NCBI GenBank assembly: GCA_026874595.1
Contig: CM049319.1
Span: 13,543,601 to 13,607,600, forward strand
Direction of reading: 5' to 3'
DNA length: 64,000 nucleotides
Source: Sipunculus nudus
Taxonomy: Eukaryota > Annelida > Sipuncula > Golfingiida > Sipunculidae
This document shows, one piece after another, positions 7,001 through 48,800 of the stretch (position 1 is the first letter of the stretch; every line of letters starts with the position of its first letter). Below the pieces are notes generated by a model. The model was given only the letters and a program-made list of their open reading frames with translations. It did no database searches and was not told the DNA's origin. Made by a program: the position numbers and the translations under genes.

Positions 7001-10000
7001 CTGTATTTTCTATAGTAACTGAAGAAGCCCTATGTGTTTTATACATATTTACTTCATTTAGGTATCCTTTTGAGCCCCCTCAGGTGCAGTTCATCACCCC
7101 TATCTACCATCCCAACATAGACAACGCTGGAAGAATATGTTTGGATAGTCTAAAGATGCCACCTAAGGTATTTTTATCATAAACCAGATGAAATAATTGG
7201 AACAATGCTACCCTTTAAGGTTAACCTCCATGCTTATGAACTGTATATGGGTGAAAAACCATGCGTGTTTTTGTCTGAATTCCTGTGTGTTTGTGTCTGA
7301 ATACTCATACTCTGCAGTTGTTCTAGATCTCCTTTGTTTTAACTGCTGCTTTGTCCAGCAAGTTATTTGGGGTCTTAACACCAATGCTGGCACAGGGCAA
7401 AGAATCAGATCAACAAGAGCAGTGTGTTGGAGGTTGAAAACTTTGGAGCTGGATGCACAATGTGATACCACGCTCTCATTGGTCTGACTACAATTGTTTG
7501 CTCTGTTGGAGCCCAGGTGGTGTGACCTAGAAAAACATCCTCTACAAAGCAGCAGTTTAAACAAAGGAGATTGGAATTAGTGCTGTGTATAACTGCTGTG
7601 TGGAGAGTGTAGAAACCCATTTGTCAATTAGTTTACATGCATATATGCAGAATAATTACCACAGGAGCAATTATCAAACATTCTGTGCATGGAATGACAG
7701 CTTACCAGTGAATGTGCAGTAGTCACATCTTTTTGGTAAGATGTACTAGATCTGTGTAGTTTTTGCAAGCTTCAACAGGTTTATGTATGCACACATTGCT
7801 TTTAAACAGCCTTTAGCATACATTAATTTTAAGCTTCAGACCATTAAGTGATTGATAGCCAGTAGATTAATATATGTTACATGTTATAGTTAAGGACTCT
7901 GTAATTCCCATTTATCTGAATTATGATTCTCTAAACATCTTGGTTATCTCCTGAAATGTTTAGATAACAGAGGCTATTTTAATTGGCTCAGAAGTGAGGA
8001 ACCCCAAGCATAAAAATAGACATAACATACTTTATTTCAAGGAACAGATTTATATTATAGTTGCTTCTTTTTTTGGTGACTCACACTGTACCTACTGATC
8101 GATATACATATATATATATATATATATATATGCCTGTAGAAGGTAGAGTTACACTCCGTTGTATTTCTAACAACATTCACCTGATGATGGGGTCACATCC
8201 GGTGAAACCTACTGAAGTAATTTTACAATGTTGTTTTTCTTCAGTGTTATATATATATATATATTTATAATTATATATATCTATATTATTTTATATATAT
8301 AGTCATGCCATTAATTTTACCTTGTGTAACAGGGTGCCTGGAAGCCAGCACTTAACATCTCCACCATTCTGACATCAGTTCAGTTATTAATGGCAGAACC
8401 AAACCCAGAGGACCCTCTCATGACAGATATTGTAAGTTAAAAGTAACTGGTATTAAAGGTTTACCTGTGAAATTGGTACATTTTCACACCGTCATAAAGT
8501 ACTCCCACTGACTGATAATAATTACAAACTGGTAATTTGTTGATGACATCAATAATAGTTATAGTGTTATTCTGGTGTTTAATGGTTCATTTTTGGTTAA
8601 TGTAACAAGAAGAAAAATCATATTTTCATTAGTTATTTTTCCCAAAATTTGTTTATAATAACATTAAAATGTGACCACAGTTCTCTTGTAAAATCAAATA
8701 TGGCATGTACCTTTATCAAAGATGCAAATTTTTAACTCCAATTACAGCAGAAGCAAACCTCTCCTAAAATTGTCCCAGGTTACTTTGTTAATGTTATTAT
8801 TATGAACATAAGTTTTTTTCAGGATGTCCATATTTTATGATCAAGTTTCCCGTACAATCTTCAGATTTATGTAAATGTGCAAATTCTTTAAGAAAAACAT
8901 GTAAAATTGACAGTGGTATATGAAAGATTAAGGTTTTGTCGTAAGATTACTGTAGGATTGATTGAGATATGTAAGACCGCCAAAGACAAAACATTTAAAA
9001 TGTGTTATTTTTCTTCCTTTCAGTCTGATGAGTTTAAATACAACAGACCATTGTATACCCAGAAGGCAAAGCAGTGGACGCAAAAATATGCAGTTGATAG
9101 TCAGGTATGGTATTTGGCCAGTGTTCAGTCGCTGTATTTGTTTGTGATGAAAATTCTATTTAGAAAGAAAAAATGTTCCTGTATTATTCTTTCCTAGATG
9201 TTAGAAACTTAATTGTGTTCTTAATGCTCATGCAGTACTATAAAGTACCATTAAGTACTATTAAGTATAAACATTTAGACACAGAACCTGCATAGATATT
9301 CCTGGTATGCAAACAAATGAATAAAATTGTAGTTATTTTACATTTTAGATACAGTCAGGCTGACAGTTTGTGATAACTCACAAAATCATTGAAAACTAAA
9401 TCCCCCCCAAAAATAATTCTACCTTTGCAACATTTATTGGTTTATGCCCTCAGCCCAGACAATTCATATGAATACTTGTTGTTGCTCCAGTTGCTGGAGA
9501 AAACTGGTCTTTATGTTTCACAGAACTTGAATGTTGCAAATTTTGTTTTGCTCTTCTAGCTTACAGTCATTGTGAATGAGAGTGATGAGTCATTTTTAGC
9601 TTAGCTGACTATAAGTCATCTGAGCTATAGTCGTGGTCCATTGTCCGTCTGTCCGTCCGTCTGGATGTCCGTCTGTAAGACTGGCACGTTTCGACACCAT
9701 TGGACCTACGAATCTGAAATTCGGCATACAGTTAGATGTCCCCAAAATCTCCTACCATGCCAAAAATTGGGTCAATATGACTTCGTTCCTTCGAGATATT
9801 AAGGAAAAACCTCAATTTTTTATTAGAAATCTATTTTCACACTTCAGGACTGCCTAATATGAAAACCACTCATCTGGTTTTCTTCATTTTTACCATAAAT
9901 ATTCCTCTATACGGTTCCTATGTACATGCCAGAAATTAAGTCAGTATTTTTTAATTTAAAAAAGTTATGGGCCCAAACATAATGGACTTTGTAAAAAAAT

Positions 10001-45800: not shown

Positions 45801-48800
45801 CCTATAAAATAAGTAATTGTGAACATCACTGACCTATGACCTTGGCCTTTTGCCCACATATCAACTGGATTTTTTCTAAATGATTGGTAACTATTAAATA
45901 CTTAAATCTGGTGTAATTACTTGGCAACCAATGGGTGAATAACTTTGACCTGCAACCTTTAACCTGCTGACCAGCTGACCCCAAAATCAATAAGTTATTT
46001 ATTCAAGCAAAAAGACCCATAAATATGAAGTTTGAGTCAAACTGAGTGATGCATAGATGTGGCATATGTGAAAGACTGAAGGTTTGGGTTGAACAGTTAC
46101 ACTTGAAATATGCTAACTAGCATTTAGAACTATTAAATATTGTGACCTTGACCTTTGACTTTTTGACCTCAACATCAATAGCCTTCTTCCCTTTTTTTGG
46201 TAGATAAGCCATATATGACAGATGGAAGGTACAGATTGAAAAGTTTGCCTGAAAATTACCCATGCAAGAAGTGGGTGCTGTGAACTTGACCTTTGACCTC
46301 AAAATCAACAGGTCTTTTCCCCTGTTGGCAGAGAAGCCATATCAGTGCTGAAAGGTTTGGAATGAAAAGTCTAGCTTGAAATGTGTCCACAACCTTTTCA
46401 AAGAAGTGGATCCTGTGACCCTGACCTTTGACCATGTGACCTCAAAATCTATAGGATTCTTCTCCAACTTAGTAGGTGAGCTATATGTGAAAGATCAAAG
46501 AATTGGGATGAAAGGGTTGGCTTAAAATGCATCCACAGGCTTTTCAAAGAAGAGGCTCCTGTGACCTTGACCGTTGACCTTTTGACCTAAAAAAAATTAT
46601 GGTTGTTCCCCTGTTGGTAGGTGAGCTGTATGTGAAAGATGGAAGGTTTGGGATGAAAATTTTGTCTCAAAGAGTTATTTCTGGGGGGTGCAAACACACC
46701 CCATAACTTCGAGAATATAGGTCACAGTGACCTAATTTCAGGTTTGCAAGGAGATCTTTTTATAACCTCTAAGACTGCATAGGGTTCATGGCCCTAGCCC
46801 CTACGGTTACGATTTGTGCCCTGCTAACGGACGGCCGGCCGGACGGCCGGCCGGACGGACAGACGGAAGGACGACGGACAAAAAGACCCATCGCTATAGC
46901 CCAGCATGACTGAAAGTCAGCTGAGCTAATAACACAGGCTTTGTGAGGAGTAAATGTTTGCCTTGAAATTGATTTCATTTAATAAATGCGAGCAAACTCC
47001 AGAAAAGACTAATACATAAGGTTACTACACACACATATAGGCTATATAGAATTATTTCATATATATATTAACAAGGCCTACAGGCCTAATGGGAACCTGT
47101 GCATTAGGAAATACACGAGGTATAATGCTTCAATGCTGGATCATTACTTTTCATGTATATGAACTATGCAAGTACTAAACATTTTGAATAAGAAACATAT
47201 ACCAGTTTTAAAAAGACAAATGTATGTGTATAATAACATATGTGAATAACGTATGTGGGATCACCATGATCACAACAAATGTGGGTTAGGTTGAAAAGAA
47301 CATTGATCTTGCAGTGCCATAATCACTTAAAAAGTTTTGCAAATAACACAGGCTTTGTGAGGAGTAAATGTTTGCCTTGAAATTGATTTCATTTAATAAA
47401 TGCGAGCAAACTCCAGAAAAGATTTCATACATAAGGTTACTACACACACATATAGGCTATATAGAATTATTACATATATATATTAACAAGGCCTACAGGC
47501 CTAATGGGAACCTGTGCATTAGGAAATACACGAGGTATAATGCTTCAATGCTGGATCATTACTTTTCATGTATATGAACTATGCAAGTACTAAACATTTT
47601 GAATAAGAAACAATTACACAAACATCACTGCTGAAATTCTAGCATAGGTGCACACAACACTAAAAAGATTGTAGCTGGCACCACCAGTCTTGTATACAAC
47701 GAAGCTATCAGAGATATATACATAAGCCCAATTTCAGACTGATATATCAAACCCCTCCTGAGAAAAACGTGTGCAAAAGTCATGGTAGGTGGCGACACCT
47801 GTCTTGTGAGCAAGAAAGCCATCAAAGACACATAGACAGGTCAAAATATTAGGCCAATACATCAAACTTACCTTTAGTCTGATGCATGGGGCTGACCAGG
47901 CTTAGGTGAGAAAGGCTGTTGCCCCGAGTGAACTGTGACAAATTGCTTGCTTAGACTACTGCACTGAGTGAACTCATGACCTGCACCTGGCTAGACTGAG
48001 TGAACTTTTGACCTGTACCTGGCTGCACTGAGTGAACTCTTGACCTGCTGCATAATCTGACACAGTTGGCAGTCTGCCAAAGCTATAAACAGAATGCAGC
48101 TACTGCACTGAGTAAACTCCTGACCCATACCTGGCTGCACTGAGTGAACTCTTGACCTGTTGCCTAATCTGATACAGTTGGCAGTCTGCCAAGGCTATAA
48201 ATAGATCCAGACTGACCTCTAGCCTGTTGCCAAATCTGAAATAGTAGCCACACCATTGCATAAGCTCATGCAGGGGCCCTGCCCTGAGGGGCTTGACACC
48301 CATGAAGTGATCACATGGTGCCCATGAGGTGTTCACATGTCACCCATGAGGTGATCACATGCCTTGTGCTAGGCTGCACTGATTGAACTCTTGACCTATA
48401 TCTGGCTGCACTGAATGAACTCTTGATCTGTTCCCAAATCTGAAAAAGTTGGCAGTTTCTCATCCTATTTAAAGATACAGATTCAATCTTGGCCTGTTGG
48501 TATATCTGTTTACACATACTGAAAGACTTTGGTTAAAATTTCTTTTTTCAAGCCGACATATTCATAAACTTTTTATCAAAATATCTAGAATAATAAAAGA
48601 TGCAGTACTTTCATTGTTAAAGGTCCAATAGTTCTGCCAAAAATCATTCTAGTAAACTTGAACAAAGGCCACCTAAGAATAATTTTTGTGCAATGTTACA
48701 GAAGATATAATTGAAATTATAATTTTGTAGAAGAACACTACTGCAGTCCTCAGTTTGAAAAAGACATAATAATGGCCATAAGACCAACTTAAGCTATTCA

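Follow-up and report, generated by a model that had tools for sequence, protein, structure and literature searches.

The 64,000-nucleotide stretch of the Sipunculus nudus genome analysed here (assembly GCA_026874595.1, contig CM049319.1, positions 13,543,601 to 13,607,600 of the forward strand; "the window") holds a family of repeats that have common ends and differing interiors. The family fits the published anatomy of non-autonomous Helentrons (HINEs), and its longer members fall into three structural types. A second family, which we call N, has its own ends and is inserted in elements of types 2 and 3, so that the core block common to these two types is a nested transposon. The evidence argues strongly that the interiors of these HINEs are in part shared by ancestry, and that N inserted separately into a type-3 and a type-2 element, after which each composite was amplified as a whole.

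With at most three mismatches allowed, a 20-mer from one end of the repeats matched the window nine times, whereas 100 shuffles gave a mean of 0.00 matches; the opposite end of the copies carries ACGG repeats. These matches bear out the eight copies with common ends, A to H, described in a first-pass annotation, all of which share both ends; a ninth, degraded copy, X, was absent from that list. Self-alignment recovered the proposed grouping of A, C and F (type 1), B and G (type 2) and D and H (type 3), and copy E, about 120 bp long, does have almost no core. The description thus stood as to shared ends, grouping and E; it failed in calling the three cores unrelated and in the orientation it gave. 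Across the genome, screened as 1,426,538,692 bases (1.43 Gb) in 153 contigs, the 20-mer, which lies at the 3′ end, gave 28,172 matches at up to two mismatches, and a reversed-pattern control gave 5. A lone outer 5′-end sequence, AGTCAGCTGAGCTAAAA, lies at 58505–58523 with no recognisable partner end.

HINEs are built, in order, of a 5′ subterminal inverted repeat (subTIR), an inverted repeat (IR), a microsatellite, central repeats, a 3′ subTIR and a palindrome (PMC7492417, PMC4067079; here and below, statements about published systems draw on parts of the papers cited). The outer ends in the window read 5′-T(n)AGCTCAGCTGAC...(GTCY)n on one side and CAGCTGAGC-TGACCCATGGGTCA-CTTG-3′ on the other. 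On the 5′ side a run of T is followed by AGCTCAGCTGACT, a short loop, the complement of AGCTCAGCTGACT and GTCC/GTCT repeats; on the 3′ side come CAGCTGAGC, the inverse of the start, then the palindrome TGACCCATGGGTCA, plain in the sequence, and CTTG. Mutually inverted subTIRs (AGCTCAGCTGA.. and ..CAGCTGAGC) are present in B, D, F, G and H, and in A with one change; the 5′ subTIR is degraded in E and lost in X. The 5′ IR is complementary to the subTIR and precedes the GTCC/GTCT microsatellite, and the 5′ hairpin folds better than shuffled sequence in H, G and A (z = −4.76, −5.15 and −3.33, respectively). In a HINE the palindrome marks the 3′ end, and so the orientation first assigned must be turned round, with the ACGG (GTCC) hairpin at the 5′ end and the CAAG palindrome at the 3′ end. 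Four open reading frames of at least 150 amino acids were found in the window, none of them inside an element.

The insertion behavior also matches that of HINEs. All 41 distinct copies have T directly after the 3′ end, and in 37 of the 41 the dinucleotide there is TT, counted after duplicate stretches were removed and Rep loci excluded. Near copy H, its left and right flanks are joined in a duplicate of about 312 bp from which H is absent; identity is 98.5% over 267 columns of the right flank and complete over 45 bp of the left. The join reads GCAAA^TAACACAGG, and no host sequence was lost. From the 3′ flanks and this empty site, insertion occurs at TT with no target site duplication, a possible 2-bp TT (AA/TT) duplication being indistinguishable from the element's own Ts. 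The H target site (46932–47612) is itself duplicated, with one copy filled and one empty.

On the nature of the elements, the first-pass annotation was right in part. It had proposed non-autonomous rolling-circle-like elements of the pearl/Helentron kind, with fixed ends and changing cores, which agrees with the HINE anatomy, and it had suggested that cores were gained by capture, which holds as set out below. Its further suggestion of an undescribed group does not hold for the kind of element, because HINE architecture has been published and the shuffling of modules in oyster HINEs is in print (PMC7492417); nor did the unrelated cores stand, or recombination of cores as the source of the one exchange that could be followed. 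Among the matches listed, full-text literature hits to short stretches of the ends all concerned other subjects by title, and the end patterns had no exact match in the viral contigs or the bacterial and archaeal genome contigs scanned.

The cores have a homologous part, clear between types 2 and 3 and weaker in type 1. A profile of the 337-bp unit of type 2 matched both type-3 copies beside the ACGG end over 193 positions (E-values of 1.4e-23 and 1.5e-25 for D and H). Its match to copy A was weak (128 positions, E = 1.3e-4) and scored no better than stray matches to other repeats of the window, which began at E = 7.6e-5; ten random windows, generated by a first-order chain rather than exact shuffling, gave a single match at E = 0.011. 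Pairwise alignment of the central part of A with the units of G extended over 129 columns at 64% identity (E = 8e-8). Because of these profile matches and the A/G alignment, we read about 200 bp near the 5′ end as a part of the core that types 2 and 3 share by descent, as judged by sequence similarity, and that type 1 probably shares as well. Further inward the types differ, and array monomers measure 280 bp, 337 bp and roughly 680 bp. A block of 280-bp units, missed in the earlier description, is common to B, G and H and is absent from D.

The 280-bp and 337-bp profiles also match each other's arrays weakly (best E = 7e-6). Weak matches to these profiles (E = 6e-13 to 2e-3) lie at 47661–47867, 49381–49535 and 50712–50849, in the neighborhood of other local repeats at 47968–51164, and perhaps represent older HINE families.

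The block with 280-bp units is N, an independent transposon family with its own ends, hairpins, inverted repeats and copy number. N starts with GTATCCGCCAAAAC and its complement, which form a 5′ hairpin (z = −8.16); on its 3′ side an inverted copy, GGCGGATAC, is followed by a 19-base palindrome (hairpin z = −3.04). It thus has the subTIRs of a HINE (GTATCCGCCAAAAC and TTTTGGCGGATAC) and a 5′ IR. Like a canonical Helitron, N ends in CTAG in copy H, the palindrome GTAGTCG-CTTGT-CGACTAC finishing 11 nt before this end. The canonical Helitron 5′ TC is lacking, the start being TT, T or GT depending on which sequence owns the TT. In neither H nor G do the first 90 bases of N show a GTCY microsatellite. 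Genome-wide, the N 3′ end had 14,458 matches at up to two mismatches, with 0 for the control.

For N lying outside composites, all 13 of the 5′ ends counted come after ATT, and all 29 of the 3′ ends have T behind them (TT in 28); duplicate stretches and Rep loci were again excluded, and the two flanks were counted partly from different copies. These flanks fit equally well a 5′ TT with insertion at A^T, insertion at T^T, and duplication of TT. The site at which N was captured in type 2 sits within a run of T; the type-3 site is ATT. N is 667 to 1,457 bp long inside type-3 composites (eight loci, L073–L080) and 880 to 1,464 bp outside composites (ten loci), a range that fits 280-bp units having been added and lost. 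At one locus (L046) the two N ends belong to two neighboring copies.

N sits at different positions in type 3 (H) and type 2 (B and G), and copy D reads straight through exactly where N starts and ends in H. Both kinds of junction recur in the genome. The type3|N junction had 152 matches and the uninterrupted type-3 sequence 1,913; the type2|N junction had 2,325 and the N-free type-2 join 856 exact matches, each with a control of 0. The mismatch-tolerant counts and the exact count of 856 are not directly comparable, and the final N-free type-2 pattern was written, in widened form, after two N-free type-2 copies were known. If N is nested in type 2, N-free type-2 copies are to be expected, and two were found among the loci examined (L002 and L041), the second being a complete element of 1.27 kb with both outer ends and 337-bp units. 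Each genome search listed 100 places, the first in the genome rather than a random sample; of the nine N-free type-2 places that overlap the range of the 20-mer list, three lie 168–169 bp from an exact outer end.

The composites have moved as units. Copies B and G have differing flanks and a common N 3′ junction, from which we conclude that the composite moved as a whole. All eight type3|N loci that were read have both N junctions and the outer 3′ end, and their outer flanks differ. The inner N 3′ end lies 180–183 bp from the outer 3′ end in type 2 and 306–318 bp in type 3, with both ends present in the typed composites. Of the first eight outer copies in the genome list, six were type 2, five of them bearing N; one was an N-free type 3 and one was of another kind. 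The first-pass proposal of "capture or recombination of cores" is therefore half upheld: capture took the form of N insertion followed by co-amplification, and the one exchange that we traced involved no recombination between cores.

We built a tree of N from the 25 of 49 N 3′ ends that have a recognisable 5′ end, reduced to 24 rows by excluding L074, a 667-bp N on a long branch. The six type-2 N copies fall on one side of a branch (support 98/98), and six of the eight from type 3 group together (100/99), next to standalone copies of N. Several observations weigh against the account given so far. Two type-3 copies of N, L076 and L079, which carry the CAAGAAC variant of the junction, fall outside the type-3 clade, a placement that may reflect gene conversion, an insertion hot spot or another capture at the identical base; the type-2 row L050 is a long branch. 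Composites were read from outer end to outer end only within the window. As to class, copy C has no 3′ subTIR and the 3′ end of H folds no better than shuffles (z = −0.25). Finally, the autonomous Rep-helicase relative between the same ends, which the first-pass annotation had advised looking for, did not appear: 30 Rep loci, searched with about 1.5 kb on each side, and two Rep loci with flanks of 4.6–9.6 kb showed neither the outer ends nor those of N.

The position of L076 and L079 bears on whether N has a strong target preference, so that it entered one type-3 site several times and part of the 152 junctions are separate insertions. The six copies of the clade carry CCAGAAC, and among the 100 type-3 junctions listed, 65 have CCAGAAC, 33 CAAGAAC and 2 another variant; the ATT found before every N 5′ end counted outside composites is likewise the sequence of the type-3 site. 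Against this, an approximately unbiased (AU) test left a single origin of type-3 N unrejected (p = 0.242), and N lies in identical orientation at the identical base in all eight loci read. We therefore regard repeated insertion at the type-3 site as unlikely, and prefer one capture of N in each type.

Recombination or gene conversion could also have passed the shared block from one of these two types to the other, a process for which the common ends and the homologous 5′ region could serve as substrate and which has been offered as a model for oyster HINEs with two arrays (PMC7492417). The breakpoints, however, are N's own ends, and no type-2 sequence was carried along; N also exists alone amid differing flanks, and the type-2 and type-3 copies stand on separate branches, the latter beside standalone copies. 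We rejected recombination as the source of the block on the junctions, and consider it highly improbable. A single long consensus containing N, ancestral to all types, from which D-like copies deleted N, would accommodate the homology of the core near the 5′ end but is scarcely credible, since the N-free joins are intact and many in both types and deletion would have had to strike the exact ends of N in two backgrounds, at the two distances from the 3′ end given above.

Candidate machinery is present in the genome, where Helitron_like_N gave 143 matches from 150 scored candidates. A 1,228-residue piece of a 2,235-residue frame matches the PIF1 helicase and Exo_endo_phos domains (E = 1.6e-21 and 2.7e-13, respectively), a pairing that is the make-up of a Helentron. 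The oyster HINEs likewise have no known autonomous partner (PMC7492417).

From the two families, their empty sites, the fixed junctions and the copy numbers, which are observed directly, we infer the following course. The outer HINEs would move by single-strand rolling-circle copying, with a Rep-helicase-endonuclease acting in trans. Their interiors would keep an ancestral shared part while the remainder diverged. N, similar in general build, would have entered a type-3 copy and, separately and elsewhere, a type-2 copy, and each composite would then have been copied as one unit from the outer ends. The internal 3′ end of N would be passed over because the outer machinery would not recognise the N signal.

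The outer family closely resembles Cg_HINE of Crassostrea gigas (PMC7492417). There, a left flank with 5′ subTIR, IR and GTCY-like microsatellite is followed by central tandem arrays and a right flank with subTIR and palindrome; targets are T-rich, with no target site duplication, and the published account includes related flanks with unrelated arrays (oyster group 2) and two-array elements. The 13 clustered oyster arrays have monomers of 138–181 bp, unlike the longer ones found here. For the two-array elements, recombination, junction fragments and filler DNA are discussed, whereas here a nested transposon and empty sites are seen. The family also shares subTIRs, IR, 3′ palindrome, TT insertion with variable Ts and non-coding interiors with DINE-1/HINE elements and Helentrons (PMC4067079), and Rep-helicase-endonuclease proteins occur in the same genome in that setting as here; unlike there, an autonomous partner with the same ends was not found among the Rep loci that we scanned. 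As described in the papers cited, the bivalve Pearl elements (Gaffney et al. 2003), with short tandem arrays in a HINE-type frame, are similar as well.

Modular HINEs (PMC7492417) and nested Helitrons (PMC3288121, PMC5148889) are each already known. In maize (PMC3288121) and Fusarium (PMC5148889), one Helitron lies inside another, the composite is proposed to be mobile, and the inner ends are proposed as new starts or stops. The present case differs in that two composites were amplified, with 2,325 and 152 junctions, and in that the copies read continue past the inner 3′ end. We found no nested HINEs in the literature on nested or composite Helitrons and HINEs, a coverage that takes in parts of papers and mostly leaves subscription journals outside. 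The origin of different or double satellite-like arrays in HINEs is left open in the portions of the oyster paper available (PMC7492417), and one route by which a HINE gains an array is documented here by empty sites, both junctions and genome-wide counts. The composites also offer a natural experiment on whether the end signals of one rolling-circle system are disregarded by a different one.

N shares its 3′ CTAG with proto-Helentron-Pi of Phytophthora infestans (PMC4067079); a further match, in 5′ TT and in A/T insertion, depends on the TT that precedes GTATCC being part of N. N differs in being non-autonomous and in having subTIRs and a 5′ IR hairpin. We speculate that N represents animal intermediates between Helitrons and Helentrons, with 5′ TT, 3′ CTAG, insertion at A^T and subTIRs, whose stop is unread by the outer machinery. 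If that machinery were blind to N's 3′ stop, N would ride along without shortening the copying, and cross-class nesting would therefore be a general route by which HINEs gain satellite-like arrays. We hold this extended proposal to be possible but doubtful.

The features described are listed in Table 1.

Table 1. Positions of HINE copies, N insertions and empty sites in the window (strand of copies is the HINE 5′ to 3′ direction)
Feature	Position	Strand	Remarks
Copy A, type 1	9593..13236	+	5′ hairpin at 9593, 3′ palindrome at 13236
Copy B, type 2	13585..15849	+	337-bp units and 5′-truncated nested N
N remnant in B	14305..15667	+	lacks the N 5′ end; retains the 3′ end and 280-bp units
Copy X, degraded ninth copy	16030..16294 (limits approximate)	+	3′ end retained, 5′ end unrecognisable
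Copy C, type 1	17995..19361	+	3′ subTIR unrecognisable
Copy D, type 3	19980..22409	-	without N
Empty site in D, uninterrupted where H carries N	20285..20305	-	
Copy E	35345..35466 (5′ limit approximate)	-	two ends, nearly coreless
Copy F, type 1	35987..38653	-	
Copy G, type 2 composite	38664..42156	-	5′ end, 337-bp array, N, 3′ end
Nested N in G	38847..39748	-	
337-bp tandem array of type 2 (in G)	39750..42065	-	
Copy H, type 3 composite	43117..46932	-	bears N
H outer 3′ subTIR and TGACCCATGGGTCA palindrome	43117..43147	-	fold z −0.25, no better than shuffles
Nested N in H	43435..44769	-	GTATCCGCC hairpin, 280-bp units, subTIR, 19-nt palindrome, CTAG-3′
H outer 5′ terminal hairpin (subTIR and IR)	46890..46932	-	fold z −4.76
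Local duplicate of H flanks without H	47297..47612	.	empty site for the outer element

Between E and F, at 35640–35720, a tRNA-like promoter box (GTTCAAATCC), as in short interspersed elements, was noted by eye. Inverted repeats of 232 bp, 99.6% identical (1256–1487 and 2795–3026), flank a frame of 384 amino acids at 1699–2850. This frame had no Pfam match; by eye it may resemble a Penelope-like GIY-YIG protein. On the minus strand, an exon at 30063–30443 encodes a FYVE zinc finger (E = 2e-11), and a weak PH-like exon lies at 35053–35190 (best E = 0.007, which did not pass the cut-off). The two exons perhaps belong to one host gene beside copies E to H, which may be a PLEKHF gene.

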